In this document: piece after piece, positions 20,012 to 60,027 of the stretch
How positions within the stretch are numbered: position 1 is the stretch's first letter
Layout: each line of letters opens with the position of its first letter
From: Porodaedalea pini
Taxonomy: Eukaryota; Basidiomycota; Agaricomycetes; Hymenochaetales; Hymenochaetaceae
Direction: 5' to 3'
Assembly: GCA_002794775.1 (NCBI GenBank)
Contig: NBAY01000029.1
Span: 124,001-188,000 of the forward strand
Length of the DNA: 64,000 bases
Made by a program: the position numbers and the translations under genes
The notes under the pieces: generated by a model
The model's input: the letters and a program-made list of their open reading frames with translations, nothing else
What the model was told of the DNA's origin: nothing
Database searches by the model: none

Positions 20012-20860
20012 CAGCCTTTTTCATAAGTCCTGTGACATGTGCATGTCACATGAAGTGAGCCGCGTCAGAGCCAAAGTGTCGAAAATTTAGAATGAATGCC
20101 TATTTTCTCTGTGAATTCTGCACAGAACCTGCTCATTAAGTACTCAAAAAAAAGGCACGGTTCTCAGGAGAAGAAATATGTAAAATAGGGAGCAATAAAT
20201 TGACTGTGTAGGTGGGTGGAGATCAAACAAGTGCAGCTGGTCTGTTCTCTCACCCATTTCCACTGAGATTCAAAAATTATAGCTCCCCTACATCTACCTA
20301 TAAAATTCTTTCCTGTGTCTGTAAATTAAGTATATGACTATATCAACATCTCCTGAAAGTTTGAAGCCAATCCATTCAGTATTCATGGTCCAGCAGCAAG
20401 ATTTGTGTTCTACTCTGCAAGACCTGTTGTGAGAAAAGGAGGGTGGAAAGAGCTTGAAGTGGAACACAAATCTTGCTGCTGGACCATGAATACTGAATGG
20501 ATTGGCTTCAAACTTTCAGGAGATGTTGATATAGTCATATACTTAATTTACAGACACAGGAAAAAAATTTATAGGTAGATGTAGGGGAGCTATAATTTTT
20601 GAATCTCAGTGGAAATGGGTGAGAGAACAGACTAGCTGCACTTGTTTGATCTCCACCCACCTACACAGTCAATTTATTGCTCCCTATTTTACATATTTCT
20701 TCTCCTGAGAACCGTACTTTTTTTTTGAGTACTTAATGAGCAGGTACTGTGCAGAATTCACAGAGAAAATAGGCATTCATTCTAAATTTTCGACACTTTG
20801 GCTCTGACGCGGCTCATTTCACATGACATGCACGTGTCACAGGACTTATGAAAAAGGCTG
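20012..20860. mobile_element. TA-flanked palindromic (foldback) element, copy 1
   Basis: An 849-bp unit beginning CAGCCTTTTTCATAAG and ending CTTATGAAAAAGGCTG, with TA on both sides. The left arm (about 20012-20413) and right arm (about 20460-20860) are nearly perfect inverted repeats of roughly 400 bp around a ~46-bp loop (tactctgcaagacctg...). No coding capacity. TA flanks and CAGxx termini fit a non-autonomous Tc1/mariner-type element. Close copies lie at 37189-38038 and 58012-58860. Its termini differ from those of the mariner-like element at 60322. Confidence 0.88.
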
Positions 20861-20862
20861 TA

Positions 20863-21490
20863 AACATGCATCGGAAGACCATTTTCAAGAGCATATATTT
20901 GTAGGCTAGTTAATGAGAATCTAACTACATACTATTTTTCTACTAACTGTTTTCTTCTGCTCTCAAAAGGAACTACTCAATTCTATGCAACCAATCACTG
21001 AGAAAAAAATTGTTCTCTAAAACACTGGCTGGAATGATTTGGCAGGAGCCAACATTAGTGTTTGCAACACTACATTTCAATGCTTGCACTGGCTAGCTCA
21101 GAACTCTTTAGAACTAAAGTAGATACATAGATAAACTAGTATACAGAATGTTGTACTTTAATGCGCTGTACAAATAGCATGAAAAATTGAGACATTGGCT
21201 ATGTGAGAGACTTGCTCAAAACAGTCCCAGAAGATGCCAAGAACCTCAAGACAGCAAGCTCGAGTCAAAATGTTTCCTCCTGAAAATTTGTACTCATTGA
21301 TATAGAGCCAACAAGTAGTCTGTTTCTTGTACTGCACATGTAATGTCATTGTTGTATTTTTGTGATTAAGCTACAGTAGTCCATCCTTCCAAGTAAAGAC
21401 ACAGCACATATTTCCATCCTCTGACTCTATGCTCTCTTGGACATGACAAATCAATTAATAGAATGATAATTTACAATAATTACATATAAT
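20863..21490. other. AT-rich spacer next to KDZ 3' end
   Basis: No convincing coding segment. It probably contains the downstream flank of the minus-strand KDZ pseudogene, but I see no terminal inverted repeat that would close a KDZ element. Confidence 0.4.
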
Positions 21491-21734
21491 TATATGTCAG
21501 CCTCAGTGCATGACAAGGTGTCGAATGCTGCAGACACCACAGATAACACTGATAAGTCCTTGTCCCCATCAGACTGCTCGCCATTGTCTCCCTGCCCTCC
21601 TTTCACATATGGTGCAGAGCCATTTGTGTCTGTATACAATGAAGGTACACTGAAAGTGTTTTCTAGTCATGGATTGTTGATGGAGATGTCAGTGGCATTT
21701 CCATCCATTGTGGTATCTATTTTGCAAACTTGCA

Positions 21735-22990
21735 GTGGGTCTTGATTGCCTGAGAATTCTCTCCATCCTTCAATGTCTTGCAGGCAGTGCAGATGAGTCC
21801 AATTGACAGCTTGACACAGCATCTGTCATTTCCTCAGCTGTACAGCAAGTTCTGGGTCACTGCAATTGAGGTTCTTCAGGACATTGTCCACTTGTGTTTC
21901 TGAGTTGAACATGTACGTATGAAGCTGATGAATTTCAATGTTGAGGTGCTTGAGTTCTTCCTGTGAGCATTGAAGTTTGTAGTATGCAACAGATGCCTCT
22001 TGTTCTGCCTTCTGTGTCCATGGCTTATTGGTGATGTTGTGGCGACTAAGGTGGAGGATGTCGAATTGGCTAATGAAAACGTACTCTAGGACTTCCGTGA
22101 TTTCTAGCGATCAGTGAGATAGGTGAGTGGCGGTGTCATTGTATGCTTTTATGGCTGATCGAACAGCTTTTGATCAGGCCTTCAGAGCCTTTGCAATTGG
22201 ACCCTCATTTTGTAGCCCAGCAAACATTAGTATGGTTATTTAGCACTTATTTAGAAACTTACCAGTACCAGCCTGATTCATCTTTGTCAGTTCAAAGAGC
22301 CGTGAGACAACCAGTCCTTCAAGCTTGTCAATGGCCCTCTTGAAATCTCGCTCGGCTAAGCTCTTGTCCACTCAAAGCCAATCTTCACAGCCTTGTTTCC
22401 ACCTGGCAGTGATCTTGAGCTTTCATTCAAGTTCTCGCATGGTAGATTGAAGAGCAAGGAGCAAGTTGAGGCCTCGCACCAATCCCATCTTGGTTCACAA
22501 TGTTTCTGCAGAACTATTGTTGTATGAGCTCTGTGTTGTTTCAAAGTCTCTTGGCTATAGTAACACCCATTGCAAAGTCCAAGTTTTGTACCTTTCACTG
22601 CCAAAATATGAGTATGCATGAAAAATAAATTAGGAGAGCTCACCTATCTGTGCTTCGGTGTAGTACTATGCTACCACATGGGAGAGTTCGACCATTTCCA
22701 ACACATCACACTCTTTATCAAAGATGATCATACATGTGTCGGCGAGCTGTGCTCCTTTGCAGCTTGCGGTGCTTCCAGCCAAGCTGAAGATCATGAAAGC
22801 ACTTACTCTGCTATTGCAAGTTTCTTAAGAGTCTCAACATACTCCATCTCAAGAATCTCGACCTCAGACAGGCGATGTGACTGCAAAGCCTTTAAGTACA
22901 TAAGTTCTTCAGCATGCCACTGTGGGAAAACATTGTTGAACTCAATTTTGAGCAGCTGCTTCATGTTTGTGAGCTGTTTTGTATGTTCAT
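21735..22990 (-). pseudogene. KDZ transposase, C-terminal segment
   Basis: Minus-strand reading gives the C-terminal helical part typical of KDZ (Kyakuja-Dileera-Zisupton) transposases. Recognisable pieces are QWHAEELMYLKAL...LEMEYVETLKKL (22960-22810), a Trp/Ser-rich middle (22640-22360) and the conserved end EYVFISQFDILHLSRHNI...KPWTQKAEQEA (22110-21990), then HLNIEIHQLHTYM and WREFSGNQ. Family members have 'F L.EF.LLR..R.D....WA' and 'HRVNIE.RRLHT' at these places. Frames shift and stops occur, so it is decayed. It joins the segment at 24585-25877 once the hAT-like insertion 22991-24584 is removed. Confidence 0.72.
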
Positions 22991-24584
22991 TAGGGACTGG
23001 TATGGATGGCCTGATCCGCAATCCGTACCGCGGATAGGCTTTCTCACGGATGCCGCAGACTGCGGATGAAATTCCCATGGGTACCGCGGTTGTCGCGGAT
23101 GGGCACGAGCAGTGATTCCCTGCCTAAATGGGCATGAGTAGTTCTTATGTCATAAAAATCATTGCCAAATGGGTTATGGGTTTCTCACAACCACAGACGC
23201 GAAAATCATTTTTGCCTTTTGCGGTCAACCGCGGTTCATCCACCATCCGTGGGAATCTGTATCCGCGGTGTCGTATGCCAAAACTGTTTGACTATTCAAG
23301 ACTAGCCTTACAACACATGGATCAGATGGCCATTATTCAAATATTAAATTCTAGTCGCTTAGAATTCACATGGCAGAATTACCCCAGATCTCAGAAATTT
23401 TAATTAATTCAAAACAATTCATCGCTAACCAGGGGTATTAACCACTGCAAGGCACTAGAATGAAGGTACCAAATAGGCAATATAAATCTAGATACATGGC
23501 AAGGTCCCCGATCAAATTAAACCAAAAGAAAATATGAAAGTTCAGAAGACGAATAGCTGAAAGTAATAAATTACTCTGTTATCATGCATATTGTTGCATG
23601 GATATGTCAGCATTCCCACTGAAGTTTATGTAATATTATGGAAGGGAATAACAAGGAATAACAGATGCAAAACAATGGAAAAGCCTAGATCACATTCACA
23701 ATGAATCTAGAACTTAGAGGATCTAGGTTTGGATCACTCTCTAATGGAAATTGGGAAGGATCTAGAAAACAAAGAAAGGCTGTGCATAGATTTGATTGGT
23801 TCAGTCTAGAACACAGTAGAATTCTGGCTTAAAGTAGGCCAGAAACATATGGAAAGATCTAGTTATGGGAGCTAGAATATGTTGGAATGTACCAGAACAT
23901 TTTGGTGGTGGTCTGGAATGATATGTAAAGGTTGAGAAGGTTCTGGAACAAGTATGTCCAGACTTCTAGACCTATTTATAGAACACAGAAAATAGTATAA
24001 AGGAAGGGCCTCAGAGCTGCTAGCAGAGGGAAGCAGATGGAAAATTCCCCAATAAGACAGACAGCTAAGTGAATTGTCACCCAAGAGAGATACTCACTGG
24101 AGTATTCTAATAAGGTAATTCTCAGCTAACTGACAGCAAACTAACCCTCTATAGCTAGCTAGTGACCAGGTCCAACCTAATTAGCCAAACTCAAAACCTA
24201 AGTGTGAAAATCAGCAAGTAGTTGCTTGAGTTAAGGAAATTCAAGTATTCAGTAAAAGAGACTCAGGGAAAGTCTAAAGTAAAAGCTGGAAATCCTTGGT
24301 GGATTACTCAAGATCTTCAAGAAAGGAAATTGGTAAAGTGAATTAGGATATCTTAAACTGCTAACTTTTACAGGTTACAATCTATCAGTACAAGAAATCA
24401 AAATCCCTAGTAAAACGAACAACTGGGAAAAGTTTTGACTTAACGACTAGTCCATTCAACCCCAGTGGAACTGCAATCAACAAGATTCACTATTTGATCT
24501 TACTTGCAGTACCAGCAAGACAGCGGATGTGCTATCCGCGGTACGGATGCGGATGACTACGGATGGATACCGCACCAGTCCCTA
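22991..24584. mobile_element. hAT-like non-autonomous element inside KDZ
   Basis: Starts TAGGGACTGGTATGGATGG and ends ATACCGCACCAGTCCCTA, a short terminal inverted repeat of the hAT type. Flanks ATGTTCAT (22983-22990) and GTGTTCAT (24585-24592) form an 8-bp target duplication with one mismatch. Both ends carry CCGCGG/ATCCGC-type subterminal repeats (22998-23090 and 24515-24570), which probably bind transposase. The 1594-bp body has no transposase. A stretch around 23880-24160 with two TATA-like boxes looks LTR-like but has no clear borders. Confidence 0.8.
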
Positions 24585-25157
24585 GTGTTCATCAATACTT
24601 CGTAGTGCTTGCCTGTAGTTGTTGATAAGAAATTGTGCTGTAATGTAATCGAAGTTTTGAATAGTGCATGTAACTTAACTCATAATAAAACTCACCAAGT
24701 TCTGCATACTTATCAGAGTTCCAGCGAGAGAAGTACTGCAATATGGCCTGCCACCTGTGGAATTTTGTTGCATGTCGAGTGATGCTGGCCATGCAATTTG
24801 ACTCTGAGAAGACTCTCTTGCAGCCTTCAAAATCTTTGAGACCTTATGCCTTTAGTATAAAGCAGATGCCATTGTAACTGGCACATGCAACAGTGTGTGT
24901 GGCCATGAAATGCACTGCAGCAGAAATGACAAACCTTGTCCCTTACCTTCAGACTGACTAGATTGCTCTTGCTCATGGTCACAGAGAAGCCACAACCAAT
25001 ATCGTAGCCACCCAATAGTTTTTTCCTGAAGATGTCAATCAATTGGCTTGTCAAAGCCAATGGATATTTTGCACTACATGCCCATTTATAATCAGCTTTT
25101 TAATAATAGAAAAGAAAAAGAAGAGAAAAAGGAAAGACCTCATGAAAGGAAAGAGAA

Positions 25158-25188
<31 letters not shown>

Positions 25189-25877
25189 TAAAAATAAAGG
25201 AAAATAAGGAAAATAAAAGAAATGAAAAAGACTCACAGCTCTCCACTTTGAACCATATTTCACAGCAGCAGAATGACTCTGTGGCAACATGCAGTGACAA
25301 TGATGCCAGTCTCATCAAATGTACCTCACATTTTTTTTTCAACTCCTTCGCGAGGTTCGACCATCAGTCTGTACATGGAGTATTCTCATCTGCACCGTCA
25401 ATAGGAAAACCTTCCTCCTCTGCTTCCTCTGAAGGCGAACCATCTGCTACCAGTGTGGCAAACATCATGCTGCCACAATTCGACAACTCTGTATTGCCAG
25501 AGATCTTCTTAGTGTATTTATATGTATGTCAGTCGTCTTCATCTCATGAGATTGCCGCTCTCAAGGGGCTTACCTTGTTTAATCATTTCTTTACCTCATC
25601 CTTGAAGATGTCCACAGTGGCTGATTCAATAAAGATGAGCACCTCACAAGTGCGGCTATCTGGCTGCTCGACATTCCATACAAAGACCTTGCCATCTCCA
25701 TCTATTCTATGTCAGAGGTTCTGGTTTTGTTTCAGCAACTCATTTCTGTCCATGGTGAAGAGCAACCTGTGAGGTAGATCTTCTTCTCCAGGGAGTTCAT
25801 ATGTGCAGCAGGGGCACATGTCGTTATATTGAGATGTGTGGGACAAAAATAAAAGCGTGTTGAGCCTTGAGTTGATG
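24585..25877 (-). pseudogene. KDZ transposase, central catalytic segment
   Basis: Minus-strand reading from 25877 shows, in order: CPCCTYELPGEE and LLFTMDRNELL (family CPxCxYxLxGE and MDGN motifs) near 25800-25730, CTD-stop-WSNLAKELKKK near 25370, DETGIIVTACCHRVILLL-stop-NMVQSGEL near 25315-25236, a 165-bp intron holding an AAAAT repeat, then KYPLALTSQ and GGYDIGCGF (24990), CCSAFHGHTH...CQLQWH, and ITRHATKFHRWQAI. These match the KDZ transposase core common in basidiomycetes. Two or more in-frame stops and a frameshift make it non-functional. Its upstream part continues at 32184 after chromovirus B. Confidence 0.85.
25155..25198. repeat. (AAAAT)n microsatellite in KDZ intron
   Basis: About eight AAAAT-type units within purine-rich sequence. 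The minus strand gives a long Phe/Leu reading that is not a real membrane protein. Confidence 0.9.
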
Positions 25878-26317: not shown

Positions 26318-29300
26318 TTACCCCCCCCCCTCAAGGTTGGGCGTCCTGACCAACCAAGATCGAGGTCGTCTGGCTCAGTGTCGACGAAGCGTGGGCAGAG
26401 TCATTGGCGAGGGATGTTGAGCTTTCGAGGAGCGCCAGGGTGTTTTCGATAGAACTCAGCGATCGCCTCCTTTGCGTTCTCGCCGAAGTCCATCTCAGGC
26501 TGCCAAGTCGGTTCGTTGTATCCAACCCACTTGACAAGGTACTGTAGTTTCCCTCGGTGTAGACGCGAGTCTAGAACCTCCTCGATCTCGTACTCCTCCT
26601 CGTTGTCGACGATGTCAGGTGGCGGCGGTGCTGGTTGTCTTTGGCTCTTGAAGGATGGTTCGACGGCAGGCTTTAGCAGGGCCTCGTTGAAGACCGGGTG
26701 GACCTTTTTCCATCACTTTGGGAGCTTGAGCTTGTACGCACTTGCTCCCACCTTGTCGACGATTTCAAAAGGACCATACCATTTGTCAGCGAGTTTCTTT
26801 GTAGGCGAATCTGTGCTGATGTTTTGTCCATCAAGGAAAACCTTGTCTCCGGCCTTGTACTCAACCAAAATCCCTGCTGTCCGGTCATGGTAGCGTTTCA
26901 TGTCGTCCGCCGCCTTGACCAGGTTGTCCTTTGCGATACAATGAGTCTCCTTTATGTGTTTCGCAAATTCTTCTGCCAACATGTTGGCAGACGAGGTTCG
27001 TGTCGTGTCAAAGCTCAAGGGGTGACGTCCTGTGTTCGCGTAGAAAGGGGACATCTTCGTCGCTGAATGCTCACGGTTATTGTACGCGAACTCCGCAAGG
27101 GGGAGCCAGTCTTTCCAGTCCAATTGCTGATGGTTCACGAAGAGCCTAAGATACTGTTCAAGCTCTTGGTTAACGTGTTCCGTCTGACCATCCGTCTGTG
27201 GGTGATACGCCGTCGACGGGTTGCCTTCGATGTGTAGGAGTTTGTACAGCTCCTTCATCATCGACACATCGAACTGCGTGCCTCGGTCATGGATGATCTT
27301 CTTCGGCAAGCCGTGGAGGCGGAAGACGTGGTCGCAGTACAGTTGAGCCATGCCTTCCGCCGACAACTTTGTCGTCATCGGGATCGCGTGCATCTGTTTC
27401 GAGAACCTATCGACGAAAACACAGATCGTGTTGTGCCCCTTGGAGTCCAGGAGTTCTCCAATGAGGTTGACCGTGACAATTTCCCATGGGCCTTCCAGGA
27501 CCATGTTTGGGTGAAGTGGCCTCGACCTCAATGCCCTCAGAGCCTTTGTCCGCTGGCAGTGATCACACCCTCGGACATACGCTCTGACGTCGGAGAACAT
27601 CGATGTCCACCAGAAGTCTCGTCGGACGAGTTCCACCATTTTCAACGCTCCTGGGTGTCCAGCCAGTACCGAGTCATGACATTCCTGTAATATGACCTCC
27701 TTCATCGACGATGGTACGTACACCTTGCCCTTCATTCGCCACAAGCCGTTGAGCTCTGTCATCCCAGTCGGCCTCTCCGACTCATGTTGCGCCCTCTGCG
27801 CTTCACCCACTTTGTCTAACACCTCATCACATGACGTCCTCACCACTCCACGATTCAACCACTTCTCCTTGATGAACACGACGCCGTCGTTGTCATCCTG
27901 GCCCTTGTCGTAGCCTGCCTTGTGCGATAGTAGGTCTGCCTTGCCCATTGTCTTACCAGACTTGTGCTCGAGGTGGAAGTCGAACTCTTCGAGCTCTGTC
28001 CGCCAGCGAGCTTGTCGATAGCTCAGCTTTTGCGCCGACCTGAAGTACGTGAGGTTGGCGTGATCGGACCAGATCTCAATAGGGTGGCGGGTGCCGAGGA
28101 GGTACTGTCTCCACTCCTTGAGTGCCGAAATGATCGCGAGCATCTCCTTATTGTAGATCTCGTAGTTTTGTTCTGCTGGTAGGAACGCTTCCGACCTGTA
28201 GGCGACTACCCTCCATTTGCCTTCCTGCTTTTGCAACAATACTCCTCCAAGAGTGAAGTTTGATGAGTCCGCTTCAACGTGGAAAGGGCCCTCATCATTC
28301 GCGATGGCCAGGACTGGAGGTGAGCAGAGACGTCGTCTCAACTCCTCGAACGCCTCCTGCTGTTCGGTCTCCCATACCCAGTCCTTCTTGCCCATCAGCG
28401 ATGTCAGCGGATGGACCACCTTACTGTAGTCCTTGATGAACCGTCGCAGCCAGTTGCCCATGCCGAGGAATTGCTGCAGTTGCTTGAGGTTTTGCGGGAC
28501 TGGCCAGTCTGCAATCGCCTCAGTCTTTGCTGGGTCAGCTCTGATTTCGCCATTGCCGATGATGTGGCCGAGGTATTTCACGGTCTTGGCGTCGAACTCG
28601 CATTTTTCTGGCTTCAGGTACAGGCCATTTTCTCACAGAATCTGGAGGACATGCCTCGACATCTCGATGTGTTCCTCAAGAGTTTGTGAAAGAATGAGGA
28701 TGTCGTCGAGATAGACGATGATCAGGTTGTCGTAGATCAGTCCCTTGAAGATGTGGTTGATGAAAGCTTGGAATGTTGCTGGTGCGTTGCAAAGACCAAA
28801 GAACATGACCGTTGGCTCAAAGAGGCCCATGTTCGTGCAAAAGGCTGCCTTCCATTCATCACCTTCGCAGATCCGGACGTTGTAGTAACCCCAGCGAAGG
28901 TCAAGCTTAGTGATGTACTTCGCTTTCTTGACCTTGTCAACAAGTTCGTCGATGAGAGGGAGGGGATACTTATTCTTGATCGTACCATCATTGAGCTTAC
29001 GGTAGTCCTGGATCAGGCGTAGTGACTTGTCAGCCTTCTTGATGAAGAAGAAGGGCGATGCCATCGGTGAGATCGACTTTCGTATACGACCTGACTTCAG
29101 ATTCTCTTCGAGGAAGTCTTTTAGTGACTGCTGTTCCGTCGGTGTCAGCGGGTAGATCTTGCAGTCGCTAGGCTTGAAGTCGGGTTTCAGGTCGATGACG
29201 TGGTCCCATGGGCGGTGTTCCAGCAGCTTCTCAAATCCTTTCTCCAAGAAAACGTCGGCGTAGTCGTTGAGGTATGCAGGCCAGGACGTCTTGTCCATTC

Positions 29301-29991
29301 GCACCTCTCTTACCCTCCTCGTCTCTTCCACTGCTCTCAACACCTTCCGCATGCCTTCTTCTATGACCTTCTCCACCACACATTCGCCCGGACAGCGGGT
29401 GAAGTCGAGCGTACCTATCTTCCAGTTGACCTCAGGGTTGTGACGTCGAAGCCAGTCGTAGCCAAGGAAGATGTTTGACGATGCCAGGGACGTTACTGCA
29501 AGGATGATCCTTTCCTTGTGGTGTCCAATTATTAGCTCCACGTCAATGTACTTCTCAATCAAACTGGCCTCGTTGTGCATGCCATCCGCATTGAGCACCG
29601 TGAGGGGTCTGATGTAACACTTGGTCTCTAACCCGTATTTCTCGACGAACCTCACGTCGATGCACGATCCCGTGCACCCCGAATCCACGAGAGCATGCGC
29701 ATCCACCTCTTTCGCTTCACCTTCCACATTGTATCCCACGTTCAGGAGGAGGTCCAGCTGGCGTCCGCCAGTTCCCCTCATGAACAGCTGATCGTACTCC
29801 TTCTTTTCGTTCACACCGGTGGGGACTTCATAATCAGAAAAACCATTGATGTCGTTTGCATCTACGTGTTGTACAGACGGTTGGTTATATTTTATAGAAT
29901 CCAGATACGAGGTCCCTTGTTCTTCTCGGTCAGTCGCCCTGATGGCTACGCCTGACCACTCGCAATGCCCTGCGAGTCGACGACCTCTTCG
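26318..29991 (-). pseudogene. pol: Chromovirus B pol polyprotein (protease to chromodomain)
   Basis: The pol frame opens after a TGA at 29994-29992 and lies in the -1 frame relative to gag, overlapping it by about 46 bases. In order: aspartic protease (ALVDSGCTG near 29690), reverse transcriptase with catalytic YLDD ([10 protein letters not shown] near 28710), RNase H (FHVEADSSNFTLGGVLLQ near 28280), integrase HHCC (ECHDSVLAGHPGAL...CDHCQ), and core Asp/Asp/Glu in FVDRFSK, HDRGTQFD and TDGQTEHVNQELEQ. The GPF module (WYGPFEIVDKVG) and chromodomain (EEYEIEEVLDSR...YLVKWVGY, about 26480-26580) follow. Three TGA stops replace Arg of sister copies: QIL-stop-ENGL (28630), PK-stop-WKK (26710) and PRQ-stop-LCP (about 26403). 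Otherwise the frame is complete. Confidence 0.92.
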
Positions 29992-31737: not shown

Positions 31738-31738
31738 A

Positions 31739-32178: not shown

Positions 32179-32183
32179 TGATG

Positions 32184-32800: not shown

Positions 32801-32802
32801 CA

Positions 32803-34269: not shown

Positions 34270-34274
34270 GATGA

Positions 34275-36869: not shown

Positions 36870-39800
36870 CTTGTCCACACGCTCCAGTCTTCATATCCTC
36901 ATATTACAACTCTATGCATGAAAGAGAAATATTCATGACTGTGAATGGATCTGAAGAATGCAGAGTTCAGAAGCTAATTGCACACGGTCTGAAGGCCATG
37001 GTGTTCTGGAGAAGATCGACAGTATGAACATCTAGGTTAAGAACCAGAGAGCAATGTCCCCTTTCCTTCCCTTTACTCTTCTGCCAAGGCCCCGGAAGGA
37101 TCTTTGTGAAAGAACTTTTCTTCAGTGGGTGGAGGCACTGGGTAAATGCAAAATATGAATAGATGAGTGCAAAAGTCAACGAAGTTTACAGCCTTTTTCA
37201 TAAGTCCTGCGACACGTGCATGTCACGTGAAGTGAGCCGCGTCAGAGCCAAAGTGTCGAAAAATTAGAATGAATGCCTATTTTCTCTGTGAATTCTGCAC
37301 AGAACCTGCTCATTAAGTACTCAAAAAAAAGGCACGGTTCTCAGGAGAAGAAATATGTAAAATAGGGAGCAATAAATTGACTGTGTAGGTGGGTGGAGAT
37401 CAAACAAGTGCAGCTGGTCTGTTCTCTCACCCATTTCCACTGAGATTCAAAAATTATAGCTCCCCTACATCTACCTATAAAATTCTTTCCTGTGTCTGTA
37501 AATTAAGTATATGACTATATCAACATCTCCTGAAAGTTTGAAGCCAATCCATTCAGTATTCATGGTCCAGCAGCAAGATTTGTGTTCTACTCTGCAAGAC
37601 CTGTTGTGAGAAAAGGAGGGTGGAAAGAGCTTGAAGTGGAACACAAATCTTGCTGCTGGACCATGAATACTGAATGGATTGGCTTCAAACTTTCAGGAGA
37701 TGTTGATATAGTCATATACTTAATTTACAGACACGAGAAAAAATTTTATAGGTAGATGTAGGGGAGCTATAATTTTTGAATCTCAGTGGAAATGGGTGAG
37801 AGAACAGACCAGCTGCACTTGTTTGATCTCCACCCACCTACACAGTCAATTTATTGCTCCCTATTTTACATATTTCTTCTCCTGAGAACAGTGCCTTTTT
37901 TTTTGAGTACTTAATGAGCAGGTACTGTGCAGAATTCACAGAGAAAATAGGCATTCATTCTAAATTTTCGACACTTTGGCTCTGACGCGGCTCACTTCAC
38001 GTGACATGCACGTGTCGCAGGACTTATGAAAAAGGCTGTAACTGTCACCAAACCCTCGGTTCGATTTACAGTGAGTAGGATACCCCATAGTCTGTTGCCT
38101 TGAGCTGAGCAGCTCATCTAGCGCAATTTCCCACCATTACCCATTGCTATCTTCAGCTACATATGCATTGAACGGTTCGCCCACTCGAACCTACAGACCC
38201 AGCGACCAAGTTCTGGACCTGAACTCCCTCATGCACTCAGCTCGGATGACAACTGCACCTTCGGAGAGCGGCATACGAGCTCGGTGACTCACGGCCCTTT
38301 CTCGTGGTCCTACGTGTAGGAGAGACTCTGCTTCACATCGCCATGCAAGTACCTGCTCCGCAAGTCTATCACGAGCGAGTGACGTCGTTCATGGTGAGCT
38401 GTCGCCCTGTCCAGCATTTATGAGCATAAATAGCATAGGATATTGACTGTGTGTCTATTGTAGATCGGTCTGACTCTATCCGTGACTTGATGGAGCTCAT
38501 GAATGTGCCGCTAACGAAGGAGAGCTTCATACGAGATAGCCATGTAGGACGGACTTCAGAGTGTCAATCTATAATACGCGCACCTTTAAATTTGTCTCGG
38601 AGCCTCTCTTGCTGGTTACGCGTTGGAGTTTGCTTCTTCGAGGGTTGACATGCGCAGAGTCGCTTGGGACAAGCGAGACCATGAACTGGTCTGGAACGGC
38701 TCCACTGTTGGTTCATTCGATTTTCCTTCGAACGATGGGTTCTTCTAATGCTGACTTTCACTGCCGGCAATGCACGCATGTTTCGTCATTTCAAAACCCA
38801 TGCGCTTCACAATCACGGACCTGCTGCTCGTGAGAACAACTCCACTCAATACTGGATACTTGGGCCGAGCTCCATCGACGAGTGGCTCAAGCAAGATTGT
38901 CATACCGACACGGCGTCCATCTATCGACCGGTACTTCGTCGTCAGTAGGGACTGGTGGCAAGTTTGAGAGAATGTTGTGGTCGATGAAGACTGGTTTTCA
39001 TGCACGCAAAATGGTATATCTTGCTGTGAGTACTATGTTCTCTACTTTGTGTTTGATGTAATGTACCCACAATCGCTTGGCATCGCCTGTTGGAGGCCTC
39101 GCTACTGGCGGGCTTTCCAACGTCGGAAGGCCCTGCGATCTGTGCTGTTTAGTCCCGATAAGAGACGGAAGCCCGCTGGAGGCGGAGGTTATACCTTTAA
39201 GGGAAGGCTCCTCTGGACGTCATAGGAGCAGATGCCTAGTATGCTGCTCCTACCATCGCTGGTTGTCTATCTTATCTCTTCCCAGCTTGTCGATGGGTCT
39301 GCAGGATTTCACGCTCAAATGTAATCTGGAAAGGCCGGCCTCGAAATATCGCATCTCATGTTTAGGTACGTATTTTGTTTTTACGCTTACCGGTATGCTC
39401 TAATATCTCGCCGAAGGGTTACGTGCTTTCTTCCTCAAATCATTAAATACGATCACTTGTGTATTTACAACGTCTCCGTGTGATGAATCAGTTTTAAAGG
39501 ATTTATGGAGAGGTTCGCATTGGTATGAAAGTCCAGTTCATCATCAGAAATGATGACGTACTTTGCTGACCGTCCTTTCTCAAGGCTAGAAATAGACGTG
39601 TCGAATTTCTTCTACTTCCAACGGTTCCTGCTACACAGATCCCCATTGGTTCATGCATGGATGTCTCATTTTGTTGGTAAGCATAGATAGTCTCTTTTAC
39701 TTAGCTCCTCTCTAACCTCACTCCTTCAGCTATCCTTCTGACCTTGTGATCGTCAGCAAAACGTGCAAGCTCTACTAATACTATGGCATCGGTGCGGCGC

Positions 39801-45595: not shown

Positions 45596-46020
45596 TGTTA
45601 GGCAGGAGTCTGGGAGACAACTTGGACTGGGCAGGCCTCGGCTGACTGTCGTCTGGGACGTGCTATATTTGAGCGGGAACTCGGGACATGCTGTACTCAG
45701 GCTAGGTCGTCACGGAGGTAAGAGGATTAATACAAGCCTAAACTAATACAAAGGGGATGAGTCTCACCTAGGTCATCACGGAGGTAAGAGGAAAAGCAGA
45801 ACAAGGAGTTCATGCAATTCCTGAGACCTTATATAGCAGCGACCGTGAGACTATATTATCTAAAGTTACATAAACAAACGGAATGGAACAAATGAAGGTC
45901 ATGTGGAGGGAGTGTGGGAAATGATTGAAAAAGATGATTAATTATAATGAAAAGGAGTGATTAAAAGAAAAGAAAAGATAAAAGGGAAAATAAAAGAAGG
46001 GAAAAGTTCGAGTCCTGACA
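45596..46020 (-). repeat. 3' LTR of chromovirus C
   Basis: 425 bp, minus strand TGTCAGGACTCG...TGCCTAACA. The TAA stop of pol (46021-46023) abuts its first base and the polypurine tract is a run of seven G on the minus strand. Confidence 0.94.
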
Positions 46021-49000
46021 TTACCCCCCCTCAAGGTTGGGCGTCCTGACCAACCAAGATCACAGTCATCTGGCTCGGTGTCGACGAAGAGTGGACGGAG
46101 TTGTTGGCAAGGAATGTCGAGTTTTCGAGGAGCGCCGGGGTGTTTCTGATAGAACTCAGCGATCGCCTCCTTTGCGTTCTCACCGAAGTCCGTCTCAGGC
46201 TGCCAAGTCGGTTCGTTGTATCCGACCCACTTGATGAGGTACTGCAGTTTTCCTCGATGCAGACGTGAGTCAATGACCTCCTTGACCTCGTATTCTTCCT
46301 CATTGTCAACAATCTCTGGTGGTGGTGGTGGCTGCTGTTTCTGGCCTTCGAAGGCTGATTTGACAGCAGGCTTTAGTAGAGCTTTGTTGAAGACGGGATG
46401 GACCTTTTTCCATCGCTTTGGGAGCTTGAGCTTGTATGCACTTGCTCCCACCTTGTCGACAATGTCGAAGGGACCGTACCACTTGTCAGCAAGCTTCTTC
46501 GTTGGCGAGTCTGTACTGATGTTTCGTCCGTCGAGGAAGACCTTGTCGCCAGCCTGGTACTCCATTGATGTTCCTGCCGTCTGGTCATGGTAGCGCTTCA
46601 TGTCCTCCACTGCCTTGACCAGGTTGTCCTTCACAACACGATGAGTCTCCTTGATGTGCTTCATGAATTCTTCCGTTGACATGTTGGTAGAGGAAGTTCG
46701 TACTGTGTCGAAGCTCATAGGGTGATGTCTGGTGTTTGTATAGAAGGGAGACATCTTTGTCACCAAGTGTTCATGGTTGTTGTATGCAAATTCTGCAAGG
46801 GGGAGCCAGTCCTTCCAGTCCGATTGTCGATGGTTAATGAAGAGTCTAAGGTACTGTTCGAGCTCTTGGTTAACGCATTCAGTCTGACTGTCTGTCTGCA
46901 GGTGATATGCTGTTGACGGGTTGCCTTCGATGTGCAGGAGTTTGTATAGCTCCTTCATCATCGATGCGTCGAACTGCGTGCCACGGTCATGGATGATCTT
47001 CTTCGGTAGGCCATGGAGGCAGAAGACGTGGTCACGGTACAACTGAGCCATGCCTTCTGCTGACAGCTTTGTCATCATCAGGATCACATGCATCTGCTTC
47101 GAGAATCTATCCACGATGATGCAGATCGCATTATGTCCCTTCGAGTCTGGGAGCTCTCTGATGAGATTGACCGTAACAATTTCCCAAGGACCTTCAGGGA
47201 CTGCGTTCAGGTGAAGTGACCTTGACCTCAACGTCCTCAGAGCCTTTGTTCACTGACAACGATCACATCCTCGGACATACACTCGGACGTCGGAGAACAT
47301 CAACGCCCACCAGAAGTCTTGCCGGACAAGCTCCACCGTTTTCAATGCTCCTGGATGCCCAGCCAGTACCAAGTCGTAACACTCCTGCAACACAGATTCC
47401 TTTATCATTGATGGGACGTATACCTTGCCCTTCATCTGCCACAAACCGTCGACCTCCATCATCACTGTCGACCTCTCCGACTTGTTCTGCGCCCTCTGCA
47501 CCTCACCCACTTGTTCCAACACCTCATCACATGACGTCCTCACCACCCCACGATTCAGCCACTTCTCCTTGATGAACACGACACCGTCATTGTCATCCTT
47601 TCCTTCATCATAGCCGGCCTTGCGCGACAGTAGGTCCACCTTGCTCATCGTCTTCCCTGACTTGTGCTCAAGGTGGAAGTCAAATTCCTCGAGCTCTGTC
47701 TGTCAGCGAGCTTGTCGATAGCTCAGCTTTTGCACTGACCTGAAGTAGGTGAGGTTGGCGTGATCGGACCAGATCTCGATAGGGTGATGGGCACCAAGAA
47801 GGTACTGTCTCCACTCCTTGAGTGCCGAAATGATCACGAGCATCTCCTTATCGTAGATCTCGTAGTTCCGTTCTGCTGGTAGGAGCGCTTGTGACCTGTA
47901 GGCGACTACCCTCCACTTGCCTTCCTGCTTCCACAACAACACGCCTCCAAGTGCGAAGTTTGATGAGTCCGCTTCGACGTGGAAAGGGCCCTCATCATTC
48001 ATGATGGCTAGGACCGGAGGTGAGCAGAGACGTCATCTCAACTCCTCGAACACCTCCTGCTGTTTGGTCTCCCATACCCAGTCCTTCTTTCCCGTCAGCG
48101 ACGTCAGCGGATGGACCACCTTGCTGTAGTCCTTGATGAACCGTCGCAGCCAGTTGCCCATGCCAAGGAATTGCTGCAGCTGTTTGAGGTTTCATGAGAC
48201 TGTCCAGTCTGCAATTGCTTCCGTCTTCACTGGGTCCGCCCTGATCTTGCCATTACCAATGATGTGGCTGAGGTATTTTATGACCTTGGCGTTGAACTCG
48301 CACTTTTCGGGCTTCAGGTATAGACCGTTTTCTCGCAGGATCTGAAGTACGCGCCTTGACATCTCGATATGTTCCTCGAGAGTTTGCGAGAGAATCAGTA
48401 TATCATCGAGATAGACAATGATCAAGTTATTGTAGATTAGTCCTTTGAAGATGTGGTTGACAAAAGCCTGGAACGTTGCCAGTGCATTGCAAAGACCAAA
48501 GAACATGACTGTCAGTTCGAAAAGACCCATGTTCATGCAGAACGCTGCCTTCCATTCATCGCCTTTTCGGATCCGGACATTGTAGTATCCCCAGCGAAGA
48601 TCAAGTTTGGTGATGAACTTCACCTTCTTGACCTTGTCAACCAGTTTGTCAATGAGGGGGAGAGGATACTTGTTCTTGATCGTGCCGTCATTGAGTTTAT
48701 GGTAGTCCTGGATCGGGTGTAGCGATTTGTTGGCCTTCTTAATGAAAAAGAAGGGTGACGCCATCAGTGAGATTGACTTTTGTATGCGGCCTGACTTCAA
48801 GTTCTCTTCAAGGAAGTCCTTTAGTGATTGCTGTTCCATCGGTGTCAGCGGATAGATCTTGCAGTTGCTAGGCTTGAAGTCGGGTTTCAAGTCAATGACG
48901 TGATCCCAGGGGCAATGTTCTGGTAGCTTTTCGAAGCCTTTCTCGCTGAAGATGTCGGCAAAGTCGTTGAGGTATGCAGGCCAGGACACCTTGTCCATTC

Positions 49001-49661
49001 GCACCTCTCTCACCCTCCTCATCGCCTCCACACCCTCCTTCTCGATCATGCACTCCTCTGGACAACGGGTGAATTCAATCGAACCTGTCTTCCAGTTGAC
49101 CTCCGGGTTGTGGCATCGAAGCCAGTTGTAGCCCAGGAAGATGTTTGACAACGCCAGGGATGTCACCACAAGGACAATCCTTTCCTTATGATGTCCAATC
49201 ATTAGCTCGATGTCGACATATCTCTCAATCAAACCAGCCTCATTGTGCGTGCCGTCTGCATTGAGCACCACAAGGGGTCTGATGTATTGCTTGGTTTCCA
49301 ACCCATAGCATTCGATGAACCTCACGTCAATGCACAATCCCGTACACCCCAAATCCATGAGTGCATGTGCATCTACCTCCCTCGTCTCACCCTCCATGTT
49401 ACATCTGACGTTCAGGAGGAGGTCCAGCTGGCGTCTGCCAGTTCCCCTCATGAACAGTTGCTCGTACTCGCTTTCCTTATTCACAATGGTGGGGGCTTCA
49501 TAATTGGGAAAACCATCGATGTTGTTTGCATCTATGTTTTGTACAGACAGTTGGTTATATTTTAGCGGATCTGGATTCAAAGTCCCTTGTTCTACTCGGT
49601 CAGTCGCCCCAATGTCTATGCCTGACCACTCGCAAAACCCTGCGAGTCGACAACCTCTTTG
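46021..49661 (-). pseudogene. pol: Chromovirus C pol polyprotein
   Basis: Pieces in order on the minus strand: protease region (49580 onward; the active-site motif reads ALMDLGCTG, so the catalytic DSG of element B is DLG here), reverse transcriptase with YLDD ([10 protein letters not shown] near 48410), RNase H (FHVEADSSNFALGGVLLW), integrase zinc region and core (IIHDRGTQFD; TDSQTECVNQELEQ), GPF module and chromodomain (EEYEVKEVIDSR...YLIKWVGY, 46330-46190). Frame breaks occur near 48195, 47995 and 47700, and a TGA replaces Arg after DRCQ near 47245. The final 429 codons, 47231-45942, are open through integrase core, chromodomain and into the LTR in the same frame as the TAA-less reading, but the natural stop is the TAA at 46021 in the chromodomain frame. 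Confidence 0.88.
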
Positions 49662-51396: not shown

Positions 51397-51407
51397 GTTC
51401 TGCTTTT
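51397..51407 (-). other. Self-priming primer-binding site of chromovirus C
   Basis: AAAAGCAGAAC, one base inside the 5' LTR, identical to that of B, and complementary to GTTCTGCTTTT in the LTR (51605-51615). Confidence 0.65.
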
Positions 51408-51408
51408 A

Positions 51409-53178: not shown

Positions 53179-54249
53179 TATGCCGATCAGCACTTTGCTG
53201 TTTGACAACAAGTTTAAAAGAATGTTGAGATCAATGATGGTTGCTTTTGTGCACCTAAAATAGTATGACCTGTGGTGAGTTCCTTGTTCTGTATTTCATG
53301 TCAGATGCTGTATACCTGAGCAAAATAAGCTCATCTAGTTTGGTGCTTTGCCATTGTCTGCGAATGATCTGCTACATTAGATTTAAGTTACCAGCATCAG
53401 AATACTCTGCGATCCGTGCTGCTTAGTCCTGATAAGAGATGAAGGGGTGCCAGTGGCTGAAACTATAATTCTAGGGGCAATCTTTTCTGGAAGTCACAAT
53501 AGCTGATGTCCAGGATACTGTTCCCAGGATTACCGATGGTTCGTACTACATAGCTCGTCGATGGATCTGCAAGATTTGATGCTTGAATGTAATCTGGCGG
53601 TGAAACATGCTCTCTCATATCTGAGTGCATCTTATCTTATTGTGCTGACTGATATGTTCTAATGTTTCACCAAAAGGGCACTGGCTGTCTTCCTCGAACC
53701 TTTGAACACAATCATTAGGTGTTCGTGACTGCTCCGTGTAATGCATGGTTTTCTAATGATTCAAAGAGAGATTTGCATTTGTAGGAACCTCAAGTCTGCC
53801 TATGACCTCATACCTAGTTAGCTCACGCATTTCACGACTATGGGAGATGCATGAGACACTTTTACGTGCATCATGGTCTTACAATGATGGGTGTCTCTGC
53901 TGTCCAAGAGTACAAATGATTTCTGTATTCAACTTGGCTCTGACCCAGTTCTTCAGCTGGCCTTCTGAAAGTCAAGTACAACGTTCAGCCATGTTGTGGC
54001 TTCAGTATCAGTTGGTCGGCATCACGTGATATGCTCCAAGCACATAATCTGTCCTGGAAGGCCCACTGCTTCGAGAACGGTGTGTATTCCTTTATGAAAA
54101 GGATTACATTGACCAGTGCCTCTTTCTCAGTGCTTGGAATGGATCTCTATATCACACCATTGTCGAGCTATAGCGCTAATTGGGTTAGGTGATCTTTTTC
54201 AGCCTTGCCTGTCAAGCTTTCCTTCTGACCTTTGTCCCAGTTTTCAGGT

Positions 54250-54918
54250 CTCATATCCATTCTTATCATGCCAAACTGCAACAATCGAGTTCTGTCTCTT
54301 TGCCGTTCGTCACACAGGTGTGCCAATTGGCAGTGATGATATTCTACCACCTTGGTGATTCTGTATGGGTTCGCATGGCATCTGGTAACCGTTGGCTATC
54401 TTTGTGAAATTGACCACCTATTCTCATTGTTTTCTTGCAGGTGTATTATGTCACCTTTTACTTGCTGGGAAAGTCAGCTCGCACACACTTCTGGTCAGCA
54501 GGCGTGAGTATTCAAGCTCAGTCCTCTTCAGTGGAGGGCTCCATCAGACTTCTTCTATTAAGCCTGGTACGTCTGACGTGGTTATAACTTATAGGGGACT
54601 GCTCGCCAGTGACTTCTATGGTTCGCTTGAAGCCTTCAGTGACACTGAAGGAATCTGTATGAACTGTGGGCTCTTCATTGCGGGATGGTTATTCGGCGTG
54701 ACCTGGATTACTGTCCTTCTTGGAAATGTTCCTGCCAGGGACATTCGTCTGGCTCCTTATATTCGATGAGTTTTTCTGTACGGTACGTCTTGTCTTCAGA
54801 TTCTGTTTACTAGATTTTGTTCTTATTGACGGGCACAGGTCCGCCTTATCACACCTGCATTTTTCACCACTGACCAACTTTTGTAACCCTTTTGGTGGTC
54901 AGTACCATGCACCTGGGG
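54250..54918. other. Spacer with plus-strand open stretch, unknown
   Basis: An open stretch at 54392-54769 shows no known domain; another frame reads VYYVTFYLLGKSARTHFW with possible GT/AG joints near 54510 and 54438. It may be the continuation of the duplicated locus, whose left-hand counterpart I could not align this far. Confidence 0.3.
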
Positions 54919-55588
54919 TGTAGGGGTGCAGACTCTTCTAATCCAAAGGGTGATTCAGGCTATGGCTTGTGATCGACCCAAGGGGGACTGCAGTGACTTG
55001 GTATACCGAGAGGGACAACCTAAGTAGAGCGAGGTTCAAGATATGAAGACTCAGCGATACAGATACCTGCAGGATTCCAGTTGGACCAATACTCAGGCGG
55101 GTAGAATTGGCACTTGTGGCAGTGGCTGAGGGTGTTCAGTGATTGGGTGATGGAGTTCTGAGAGTCGGTGACAGAGCCGGTGTATACTGTTTTCAGAATG
55201 AGAGTCAGGCGAGTAGTGCATAGTAATGCATGTAGTAGATTGCAGTCTAGAGGTGGAGAGGGGACTGTCTATCTCTGTACTTGTCTCCTATCTCCCACTC
55301 TCTGTCTACAAACTACCATGAATTTATACTAAACTGAAGCAGAGAAAGCGGTGTGAGACTCGGCTGAGTCTGTGTGAACAGATGTGAAGGTGAGTCGGTG
55401 ATCGGCCTGCACACATCACGCAGCCGATCATTGTGGAGTGATGTTGTAGTGCCCAACCTGCTCTCTCATCTCCCACCACTGCACACCCGTATCCCACATC
55501 CTTGTCCTACTTGCCTAATTCCTTCCACCTGTGCCCATGAGAGTTGTTCATCCATGGGCTGATCGAGTTCATATGACATCCGTCCATT
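54919..55588 (-). repeat. Truncated gypsy-2 LTR
   Basis: Plus strand TGTAGGGGTGCAGACTC to about GACATCCGTCC, matching 7231 to about 7925 of the copy-1 LTR in the same orientation. The remaining ~150 bp are missing where the hAT end TAGGGCTC begins. CpG sites of the other LTRs often read TG/CA here, so it is old. Confidence 0.88.
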
Positions 55589-55767
55589 AGGGCTCTGCAC
55601 CGTATCGTATATGCATACGGTTGTATGTTCACGCCCTTATATGAATACGCCCATATGAGATACGGGTGTATATTTGCATTTATAGAGTAAATACGCATGT
55701 GGCCGTATTGTATACGGTGTATATGGCATATATGGACATGAAATTGTAAATACATGAACTAAAAAAA

Positions 55768-58700
55768 TTACTTCATATCTCTTTCCTTCAGTGCTTGCTT
55801 GACTAGCATGAGGTTACCGATTGTCCCTGGTTTAAGACTTGAGCGGCGAAGTGCAATAGTATCACGTCCACCAGAAAAGATCCATTCAACTGCAACAGCA
55901 GACCCTACAAAATATTATCTGAGTAGTATAATGAAAAGACATAGATATGACGCACCAGGAATACAATGGATATCATGAGCAAGTTGTGATAGACATGGAA
56001 ATTGAGCACGTCTTGCTGCCCACCACTTGACCAGTTCACCTTCTATCCAAGATCTCTCCAATTTCATTGAGAAATATTCATCAAGTTCATCACTTGCAGA
56101 TGAGGGTGTATCACTGGAGAAAAGTCTTGTGATATCATGCACAACGGTATCCATATCATCTTCATTGACCTTGTGCTGAGGCAAAGCATCTTGTTGAATT
56201 GGAACTATGTATGTTGCATTGAAATGAGCCTCAAGCTCTAGCTTTGAATCATCAATGAGTTGTGAGAGTTGCTTGTTACCCTCTGCATTCTTCTTCATTC
56301 CACTGTATGAAATGCGAGGATCCGACACTAGTTAATTAAGAGTAGTAAGAGTCATAACATATAGAGCAATGAAACAAAACGTACATGAAGCCCATAAATA
56401 ATATGGAGATGCATTGAAGCGATAAAGGTACTCGGCCAGCTTTTGATGAGCGGAAATGAGGCCATTTTTGAGTTGTGGCAGAGCACTATGAGGAATTTCC
56501 TTTATAGATTTACACAAATCATCCTGGAGAAATAGGAAGAACCCATATGTCGATGATAGCATTGGCATCTTAGTTGCTGACATTGCCGTTGTAGTGCGAC
56601 AAAACTGCTGCAACCATTTTGCAACAAGCTCAATAGCTGCCCAGTCTTTTGCGTCAAGTTCATATGTGTGAAACTTGTGTCTTGCACAGAAACTATCAAT
56701 AGCAGATTGAAATCGTAAAGCGCACCCTAAAAGACAGAGATTAATAAAGCATAGACAAGAAAACATTGACACTTGTGTAGCATCTGATGGGTAGATGACC
56801 AGTGTGTTGGAACATCAAGGATAAGCATTAATGACATGCTTTCTTTATTATCGGAGTCCTCCTTCAGTGTTGAGGTAACTTGTGACATCCATTCCTGACA
56901 ACACTGTGGACTTTTTCTGATTATACGAACAACTTGTCAAAGCTGAGGCTTAATCAGTATTGTTCTGCTATGTATATGTTCACTTTCTTACCTTTGCGAC
57001 AGCTGTCAAAACCTCAGTTAAATCATCCAAGTCATTAGCGACATCTTCATAAGTAGCTTTGTCATCTTCATCAGGTGGGTTCACATCATTCTGATAGTTT
57101 CCAGTGTTCTCTGTAACACTCTTCACAGCACCAATAGATTTGAGAAGCTGAATCAAGCTTGATTTAGAATAATAAGCAAATTAGTAAGTAAGTGCATACC
57201 TTCATTGCAGCAAGATGTACAGTGTGTGGCATGCATCGCATGTGAGCTTTCTTTGCTGAGAACTCTACTCCATCAGCATGCATATGTGTCTCCAGATAAC
57301 TGAGCATAGTATCATTATTCATAGCATTATCACAATTAATTGCAATCAGCTATAATATTAATCATTAGCGACGAACAGAAAGCTAACAATAGTAAAACCA
57401 GCACAGAACCTTTGATTTCAGTTCATACTGTTCTAATGTCTCCCAAACAATAGCACCTATATTCTCACCACTGTGCCGTCCTGTAATTTCTTCAAATGTG
57501 ATGAGTTTTTTGCCTACAAGTAATATTAGTTACACATTTTGTGCATTAGATTATCAAGCTTACCTAGTTTCCAGTCATTTGAAATATAATGCATCACAAT
57601 AGCGAGAAATGCATAACCATTACTTGATGACCATGCATCAAGAGAGAGTGCAATCTTTGAGTCAAGTTTCTAGTATGTGCAGCAGTTAAAAATAAAGTAT
57701 AAATGATATAATGGATACAATTCACATACTTTGATCATTTCCTTTGTCTCCTGAAAAGCATCTACTTTCATGTCCTTCACACCACATTTGACTGTATCTG
57801 CAGATGGAATAGCAAGATTCGTTTGTCCCCTATGTGTATAATCCAAGAATTCGCAAAAATGCTGGCCCTCGACTACAGTAAATGGCTGGTCATCAATAAC
57901 AACCCATTTCACTAGATGCCTCTTGAATTCCGCTTGATCCCAGGGTTCCTAAACATAATGTGTACTATCAGAAATTTGCCTGGTAAATAGATCAACATGT
58001 GTATTCTCTTACAGCCATTTTCATAAGTCCTGCGACATGTGCATGTCACGTGAAGTGAGCCGCGTCAGAGCCAAAGTGTTGAAAAATTAGAATGAATGCC
58101 TATTTTCTCTGTGAATTCTGCACAGAACCTGCTCATTAAGTACTCAAAAAAAAGGCACGGTTCTCAGGAGCAGAAATATGTAAAATAGGGAGCAATAAAT
58201 TGACTGTGTAGGTGGGTGGAGATCAAACAAGTGCAGCTGGTCTGTTCTCTCACCCATTTCCACTGAGATTCAAAAATTATAGCTCCCCTACATCTACCTA
58301 TAAAATTCTTTCCTGTGTCTGTAAATTAAGTATATGACTATATCAACATCTCCTGAAAGTTTGAATCCAATCCATTCAGTATTCATGGTCCAGCAGCAAG
58401 ATTTGTGTTCTACTCTGCAAGACCTGTTGTGAGATAAGGAGGGTGGAAAGAGCTTGAAGTAGAACACAAATCTTGCTGCTGGACCATGAATACTGAATGG
58501 ATTGGATTCAAACTTTCAGGAGATGTTGGTATAGTCATATACTTAATTTAAAGACACAGGAAAGAATTTTATAGGTAGATGTAGGGGAGCCATAATTTTT
58601 GAATCTCAGTGGAAATGGGTGAGAGAACAGACCAGCTGCACTTGTTTGATCTCCACCCACCTACACAGTCAATTTATTGCTCCCTATTTTACATATTTCT

Positions 58701-60027
58701 GCTCCTGAGAACCGTGCCTTTTTTTTGAGTACTTAATGAGCAGGTTCTATGCAGAATTCACAGAGAAAATAGGCATTCATTCTAATTTTTCAACACTTTG
58801 GCTCTGATGCGGCTCACTTCACGTGACATGCACGTGTCACAGGACTTATGAAAATGGCTGTAATACTTACCACTTTGATGCCTTGCTGATGCCAAAACAT
58901 TTTGGGTATCTGATTGGCATCAGAATGCTGCCCAATGATCTCACTAAGTTTCTCTTTCGTTGCCACCACTGTTAATAATAATGATATATTCATTTAATCA
59001 ACAAGTATTGTAATCTTGGAAAAGTAAAACTCACATTTACCACTAGTGATAGCTGCTTCATCCTTAGTGGGCAAGCGCTTCTTTGTAACATCATATAGGT
59101 ATTTGTATAGATTGAACAGTTCTGGGTGCTTCTCCAAGTGCTGTCTAAGACCTGTACGCAAATCAGAAACCATATAGCAGTACTAGAATTATGAAACCTG
59201 CCTGTAGCCGTCCCTCGCACCCCTTGACTGATCTTGAATATCTGTGGTGAGAGCCCAAGATGATAATGTGGGCACTTGTAATATGACGCTCCTTCCTCTG
59301 CATTTCCTTGCAAGTCAGCCAACACCTTCTGAAAGAAAAGAAACATTGGATTATTTCCAGGCTATGCATACAGTTAGATGAGAACAAAATATAGTTTACT
59401 AAGCACATACCTTGAATTCCTTCTGTTTTGTAGTAAGCGGACGTTCAATCATTACAACATCATTGTCTTCGGTGTCTTGCTGTGGTGCCAGCTGGGATGA
59501 CGATGTACTCCGACTTGCAACAGCACTCTCTGTAGTTATTTCACCTATCTTCTTTGCTACTGCATGAGGCTTTCCCTCTGACTTTTGGGCCTAATAATGA
59601 CTCATTATTTGAAAATGACTTCATCTGTCTGAAGTATTACATACCTTGTTCTTTCCAGATCGAATTGGCTCAGCAATTCGTGGCAGCTGATGTTCTATCT
59701 CCTAACTTTATAATAAGTAATGTTCTAATGAATTGGAAGAGTGATACATACCTCTTGATCATTGAGCAAGGCCTGAGTTGTTTCCTCCTCATTATATGAA
59801 CTTGACGAAACAGATGAGACAGATATTGGTGGACTTGAAGCTCGAGATTTTGTTTCCGACTGGCATGTATCGTCTGTACAGATCCATTTGTTACCTTCTG
59901 TACTTTCACGCATCTTTGCTGACATGGTACATTTACACAGATTGCAGAGGATGTTGTCTTTGTCAACTTCTTGGTGATGTTTCTGCTTTGCTGTCTTGGG
60001 AGCGATGTCTGCCATGTCGTGATCCAC
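55768..60027 (-). CDS. hAT family transposase, multi-exon, apparently open
   Basis: Starts at ATG 60027 (MDHDMADIAPK). First exons 60027-59752, 59701-59645 and 59590-59411 are in phase (92, 19 and 60 codons) with GT-AG joints; a further donor near 59204 may be GC. A zinc-finger-like region (YYKCPHYHLG...LRQHLEKHPEL) lies near 59280-59110. Downstream exons carry hAT-core segments: QPFTVVEGQHFCEFLDY (57880), ALSLDAWSSSNGYAFLAI (57640), NCDNAMNNDTML, LDVPTHWSSTHQML (56800), then KWWAARRAQFPCLSQLAHD (56015) and the C-terminal dimerisation end EWIFSGGRDTIALRRSSLKP, stop at 55770-55768. I met no in-frame stop in the segments read, unusual in this window. Exon borders between 59400 and 55900 are approximate. 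hAT transposases cut and paste DNA with 8-bp duplications. Confidence 0.8.
58012..58860. mobile_element. TA-flanked palindromic (foldback) element, copy 3
   Basis: 849 bp, TA on both sides (58010-58011, 58861-58862). Inserted in a hAT intron (57949-58870). Removing it with one TA leaves a 71-bp GT-AG intron. Both arms share copy-specific bases not found in copies 1 and 2 (for example cagccatttt / aaaatggctg and ggagcagaaat / atttctgctcc). Confidence 0.92.

Follow-up and report, generated by a model that had tools for sequence, protein, structure and literature searches.

Three Palindromic Elements in the Window

The 64-kb stretch of Porodaedalea pini DNA analysed here (contig C29, positions 124001-188000; hereafter, the window) carries three palindromes of about 850 bp that belong to one dispersed family, and the subject of this work is the way in which the two arms of such a palindrome change together. 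The palindromes lie where the first-pass annotation had placed them, with a loop of 43 nt rather than the approximately 46 bp given there. Copy 1 occupies positions 20012-20860 of the plus strand (left arm 20012-20414, loop 20415-20457, right arm 20458-20860), between TA duplications at 20010-20011 and 20861-20862. Copy 2, on the same strand, spans 37189-38038 (left arm 37189-37591, loop 37592-37634, right arm 37635-38038), with TA duplications at 37187-37188 and 38039-38040. Copy 3, also on the plus strand and the bearer of the paired changes described below, spans 58012-58860 (left arm 58012-58414, loop 58415-58457, right arm 58458-58860) and is bordered by TA at 58010-58011 and 58861-58862.

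The arms of all three are about 403 bp long and 97-99% complementary. An inverted-repeat scan of the window paired 20001-20414 with 20458-20871 in copy 1 (97%), 37186-37591 with 37635-38041 in copy 2 (98% and 99% in two registers), and 58009-58414 with 58458-58863 in copy 3 (98%). Over 402 aligned columns, the arms of copies 1, 2 and 3 mismatch at 10, 8 and 7 positions, respectively. No match to Rfam at the gathering score was found in the 64-kb window.

The Palindromes Belong to a Family of TA-Duplicating MITEs

Genome-wide searches, which covered 53.3 Mb in 201 contigs, found the 19-nt loop word at 420 places with no more than two mismatches (213 and 207 on the two strands) and its reversed control at none; some of the 420 are ends of a large element. 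All comparisons were drawn from one assembly of one strain. We fetched the regions around 100 listed places of the exact loop word (contigs C1-C23) together with places from a best-match list, which gave 125 distinct loop-centred regions. Ninety-seven passed a loose filter and 89 were analysed, the 36 that were dropped being 26 regions of low identity and 10 others. Most of the low-identity regions match the palindrome as one half only, many stand in inverted pairs, and they are mostly ends of the large element.

TTA was present at the left end in 90 of the 97 loosely filtered regions, TAA at the right end in 83, and both in 78. The intact site is visible where copies inserted into other copies (such as L014, L051 and L088), and there TTAA has been turned into T-TA-element-TA-A; thus, the target is TTAA and the duplication is TA. 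A length of about 850 bp, a high copy number and ends shared with a transposase-bearing element are traits of miniature inverted-repeat transposable elements (MITEs), and by their sequence the palindromes are classified as non-autonomous, TA-duplicating MITEs of the Tc1/mariner type; non-coding status was judged only by the lack of an open reading frame (ORF) of at least 180 aa at the three window copies. The very long terminal inverted repeats, which make up most of the element, are also a trait of Foldback elements, a likeness that is structural only.

The TTAA in CTCATTAAGTAC, at arm position ~127, is a recurrent insertion site for both MITEs and large elements. Alternating arm pieces on contigs C128 and C38 were at first suspected to be hairpin-extension arrays made by template switching. 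The one on C128 (L118) proved to be a copy inserted in a copy, with family sequence on both flanks around the TTAA near arm position 127, and the one on C38 (L108), with family sequence on one flank only, is likely to be nested as well. The last 13-14 element bases are repeated at one end of L073 and L083 and, with changes, at both ends of L055. Copies L007 and L106, on C115 and C34, have one flank in common (284 bp, 99.6%), and the match stops at the element's other end, as after recombination between copies. At C8:717000-727800 (L057, with L122 and L123), a MITE copy occupies the middle of a 2.7-kb palindrome that consists of a portion of a second repeat family; its flanks are identical over 285 bp beside the MITE and less alike farther out. 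An inverted duplication of host DNA around L057 was considered and rejected, as the flank belongs to this second family (237 candidate matches) and is not clearly host DNA.

A 9.3-kb Relative Carries a Transposase Gene in Each End

Element L119 (C7:7000-16700) is 9.3 kb long, with inverted ends of 2.0 kb each that are identical at 2000 of 2003 bases and together make up less than half of it. Each end contains a transposase-like gene in open stretches; among those searched, three that are separate from one another match successive parts of DDE_3 (PF13358) with E-values of 1.3e-9, above the curated cut-off, and of 2.8e-5 and 0.18, both below it. Thirty-four residues separate the second D from the E, as counted by eye across an assumed intron. 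A 32-base word from the transposase has 73 matches in the genome; 30 pairs that face each other account for 60 of these, with a spacing of 6.2-8.1 kb in 22 pairs and of 12-40 kb in 8, and the other 13 are unpaired, one of them (on C30) sitting at a contig start. One interior ORF of L119 has 45 genome matches from 40 scored of 42 candidates. Five interior ORFs matched no Pfam family above its cut-off, and a homologue search with two interior ORFs returned one and six homologues, none of them with a name.

The consensus of the MITE arms is identical to the L119 repeat at 375 of 405 positions. The right arm and loop of the MITE are collinear with about 450 bases of an L119 end, and the left arm stops near base 405. 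On this collinearity, the MITEs are probably derivatives of the 9.3-kb Tc1/mariner-like transposon that lost its interior between a breakpoint in one end and another in the opposite end; the arms would then correspond to its terminal repeats, and the loop would be what is left of one of them. Fungal Tc1/mariner MITEs, as a general kind, are among the closest known elements, and their TA duplication and relatives with a DDE_3 transposase are found here too. Unlike them in general, the present copies are near-perfect palindromes of 850 bp and have a 9.3-kb relative both of whose terminal repeats contain a transposase gene. The novelty of this family lies in its being Tc1/mariner-like and palindromic, and in the transposase gene found at both ends of its large form. 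The family was not recognised in the literature on arm homogenization in MITEs or on two-transposase Tc1/mariner elements, the coverage of which was partial and does not imply absence from print.

Coupling Between the Two Arms of a Copy

We compared arm divergence within and between the 89 copies at non-CpG sites, a check that the first-pass annotation had itself proposed. Divergence is 1.34% within a copy, compared with 2.83% between left arms, 3.03% between right arms and 2.93% between left and right arms of different copies. As the three between-copy values are alike and the within-copy value is lower, left and right arms are not separate lineages, and copies have been homogenised internally. 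For 100 of the 178 arms, the partner arm is at least as close as any other arm. In a tree of all arms, the partners are sister tips in 52 of 89 pairs, with 12 other cherries, when all sites are used, and in 50, with 19 other cherries, when only non-CpG sites are used.

The coupling was also visible in rare changes. Of the 140 non-CpG variants that were private to a single copy of the sample, 34 occur in both of its arms and 106 in only one; the corresponding counts at CpG sites are 1 and 10. When right arms were shuffled among copies in 1000 trials, the mean number of such two-arm variants was 0.44 and the maximum was 5. This supports the view of the first-pass annotation, drawn from the three window copies, that the two arms do not mutate independently. 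Since the sample of copies was partial, we searched four private variants through the whole genome as exact words. Those of L011 and L070 each have two matches, which are the two arms of one copy.

The homogenization is patchy. Only 26 of the 89 copies have agreeing arms at all 16 common transversion sites, the common alleles being often split between the arms, and at arm position 402, four bases before the arm end, the arms differ in 85 of 89 copies. The correlation of arm discordance between pairs of sites is 0.13 at distances of up to 20 bp and 0.05 beyond 150 bp. The matched share of varying non-CpG cells is 0.60 at positions 150-200 and 0.37-0.48 in most other bins; it is low at 385-400 (0.17), at 120-137 (0.19) and at 3-40 (0.10, the lowest). 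Apparent arm differences at positions 406-409 lie at or beyond the junction of arm and loop; they are no evidence and were not counted.

Agreement between partner repeats extends to the large elements. In ten of them, with loop words 8.4-42.6 kb apart, the two ends differ at 1, 0, 1, 1, 5, 2, 12, 0, 6 and 16 of 640 positions, a mean of 4.4 within an element against 14.4 in 243 other comparisons, some of which involve three unpaired ends. A short loop is thus not needed for the agreement.

Changes in Copy 3 and in a Pair of Copies Descended from One Insertion

The changes of copy 3 were scored against copies 1 and 2, only at sites where all four arms of those two agree. At four sites of copy 3 the change is shared by the two arms (8 T>A, 71 C>T, 162 A>C and 357 G>T), which bears out the joint change first noted in it; at five more (55, 114, 272, 312 and 334), of which the first-pass annotation made no mention, a single arm is changed. 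Moreover, one contrast drawn there, GTTGAAAAATTAG/GTCGAAAATTTAG, is not clean, as the arms of copy 2 already disagree at position 77, where one has A and the other T. Three of the four paired changes are common alleles of the family, and the A at 8 and the C at 162 occur in the large transposon as well. The T at 357 was one of the four variants searched genome-wide; its exact word has four matches, which are both arms of copy 3 and two single arms elsewhere.

The right arm of copy 3 is identical, over positions 250-402, to the right arm of a neighbouring copy 6.2 kb downstream, beyond the window. The left arm has the T at 357 but lacks the right-arm bases at 272, 312 and 334, from which we infer that copying ran from right to left. 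This pattern suggests that the neighbouring copies may have exchanged sequence, and that a short patch was then copied within copy 3.

The flanks of copies L084 and L111 are alike on both sides (269 bp at 99.3% and 261 bp at 97.7%), and the two copies hence descend from one insertion. They differ from each other in both arms at positions 171, 230, 347 and 381, which may point to change in place.

Probable Arm-to-Arm Conversion and Its Alternatives

The within-copy coupling, the two-arm variants exclusive to one copy, and the same-insertion pair that differs in both arms would probably be the outcome of patchy gene conversion between the arms of resident elements. The first-pass annotation had left a choice between the rewriting of one arm from the other and the birth of each new copy from a hairpin intermediate. 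The copying of one arm onto the other explains the data best, whereas hairpin birth is not supported, in view of the split at position 402, the small number of copies matched at all 16 sites, the agreement of ends many kilobases apart, and the common alleles among the paired changes of copy 3. In a resident element, conversion would carry patches from one arm to its partner, a mutation in one arm would be either erased or spread to both, and each copy would evolve as a unit; ectopic conversion with other copies would also bring in new alleles.

Several observations weigh against this reading. The sample is biased toward copies that resemble copy 1 or have a perfect loop word. Two of the four private variants searched genome-wide are not exclusive: the T at 357 of copy 3, with its two single-arm matches elsewhere, and the L109 variant, whose 13 matches are made up of both arms of 3 copies and 7 single matches; and exact-word searches miss copies with a further difference nearby. 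L084 and L111, the sole same-insertion pair found, also differ in a single arm at 14 sites, and their two-arm differences could result from ectopic conversion by a third copy, those at 347 and 381 being common alleles. Six of the ten large elements have no more than two differences between their ends and may simply be young; furthermore, private variants of the large elements are in both ends in 18 cases and in one end in 19; of these 19, the pair L075/L076 contributes 13, within its outermost 145 bases. Deletions were scored by script in both arms in 3 cases and in one arm in 36; many of them are in the A-run or in noisy alignments, and they were not used as evidence, although the counts as they stand would argue against coupling. 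The matched-share profile is no clean test either, because the share is low also at 120-137: its low values at both arm ends would fit recombination that requires flanking likeness, the one at 120-137 does not, and little weight is placed on the fit.

We infer gene conversion by homologous recombination rather than replication template switching in a hairpin (quasipalindrome correction), in which the polymerase would use the opposite arm as its template over a short distance. The latter is rather unlikely as the main process, and may contribute in short elements. In yeast, template switching is reported to homogenize the arms of short inverted repeats and to cause multi-base changes (PMC8604942). 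In the present family, the copy 3 patch is apparently short, L011 has a three-base change in both arms, and transversions are in excess among private two-arm variants (21/33, against 38/95 among one-arm variants; P = 0.026), the last two of which count against homologous recombination too. However, short inverted repeats are the case described in that source, and here the coupling is found also in ends 8.4-42.6 kb apart. Moreover, a process nucleated at the loop should be strong near it, where the matched share is low (385-400, compared with 150-200); the weak point of this argument is that the share is low also at the outer end and at 120-137. Among the private variants, there was no sign of GC-biased conversion (two-arm: 9 W>S, 13 S>W; one-arm: 33 and 43, respectively).

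If arms were equalised only at transposition, when either end could template the other in the repair of an excision gap, and diverged independently afterwards, the agreement between distant ends of one large element and the 106 of 140 private non-CpG variants found in a single arm would be as expected, and PMC4168063 discusses, for Galileo, gap repair in which the template is switched. This is nevertheless improbable, as L084 and L111 differ in both arms at one insertion, and the arms are mosaic, with common transversion alleles split in many copies. Still less probable, by a wide distance, is descent from a few founders changed in both arms, from which copies would have inherited their pairs of changes. 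It would suit the common alleles among the paired differences of copy 3 and the L109 variant found in several copies; as the sole cause it is contradicted by two-arm variants exclusive to one copy, by the sister-arm tree, and by within-copy divergence of about half that between copies. The proviso of the first-pass annotation, that a single ancestral subfamily without further examples might explain the matches of copy 3, fails on the 34 two-arm private variants and on the genome-wide exclusiveness of those of L011 and L070. Two further explanations deserve next to no credence. Selection for perfectly paired double-stranded RNA has a single point in its favour, the pairing expected of transcripts of the arms, and it disagrees both with the mismatch of 40 to 90% of varying non-CpG cells, depending on the bin, and with the coupling in large elements. 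An artefact of assembly or polishing, with the reads of one arm copied onto the other, has to be considered for repeats that are so hard to assemble; yet polishing across ~400 copies should favour the common base and not a single-copy one, and the coupling holds for the distant ends as well.

The arm-to-arm conversion favoured here has counterparts in known systems. In Galileo, a Foldback-like element of the P superfamily in Drosophila, the long terminal repeats of one copy, as here, often resemble each other more closely than those of different copies. Of the four copies tabulated in PMC2775673 (Table 2), two show this: within-copy differences are 0.0018 in copy 1 and 0.0071 in copy 2, compared with ~0.067-0.069 between the two. 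Copies 4 and 5, with 0.0628 and 0.0570, match crosswise instead, and are treated there in connection with an inversion produced by ectopic recombination. PMC3573991 gives 98-100% identity within a copy and describes repeats extended inward by internal sequence. Unlike Galileo, the present family belongs to another superfamily, has the transposase gene inside the repeat, and includes hundreds of palindromic MITEs with two-arm variants exclusive to single copies. In the human Y palindrome P6 (PMC3723533), conversion in place maintains the likeness of the inverted arms, in tracts with a mean length of 2068 bp; P6 is one large palindrome, whereas here hundreds of dispersed 0.4-kb arms have patches. 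Hundreds of dispersed, short and near-identical palindromes with private changes amount to a natural assay of inverted-repeat exchange.

By analogy with what is proposed for Y palindromes, where paired inverted copies repair each other, the large element might be a self-repairing palindromic transposon, in which arm-to-arm conversion over 6-40 kb would keep the inverted pair of transposase genes alike and either could restore the other, with the MITEs as its stripped version. We regard this as possible but doubtful. The likeness of paired transposase genes over 6-40 kb makes it testable whether a spare inverted copy benefits a transposon.

Other Features of the Window

Inverted repeats of 1.5 kb, 92% alike, lie at 3935-5419 and 8083-9567, and an ORF at 3909-4916, overlapping the left one, resembles a retroelement aspartyl protease. 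Retrotransposon ORFs at 26713-29814 and 45942-49580 match reverse transcriptase, RNase H or integrase, one of them with a chromodomain. The protein encoded at 61348-62508, whose homologues suggest an agaricomycete-like genome, matches Aft1_HRA, and its best named homologue, from Phellopilus nigrolimitatus, is 47% identical. Its named homologues are nearly all from basidiomycetes, with one record from a fern.

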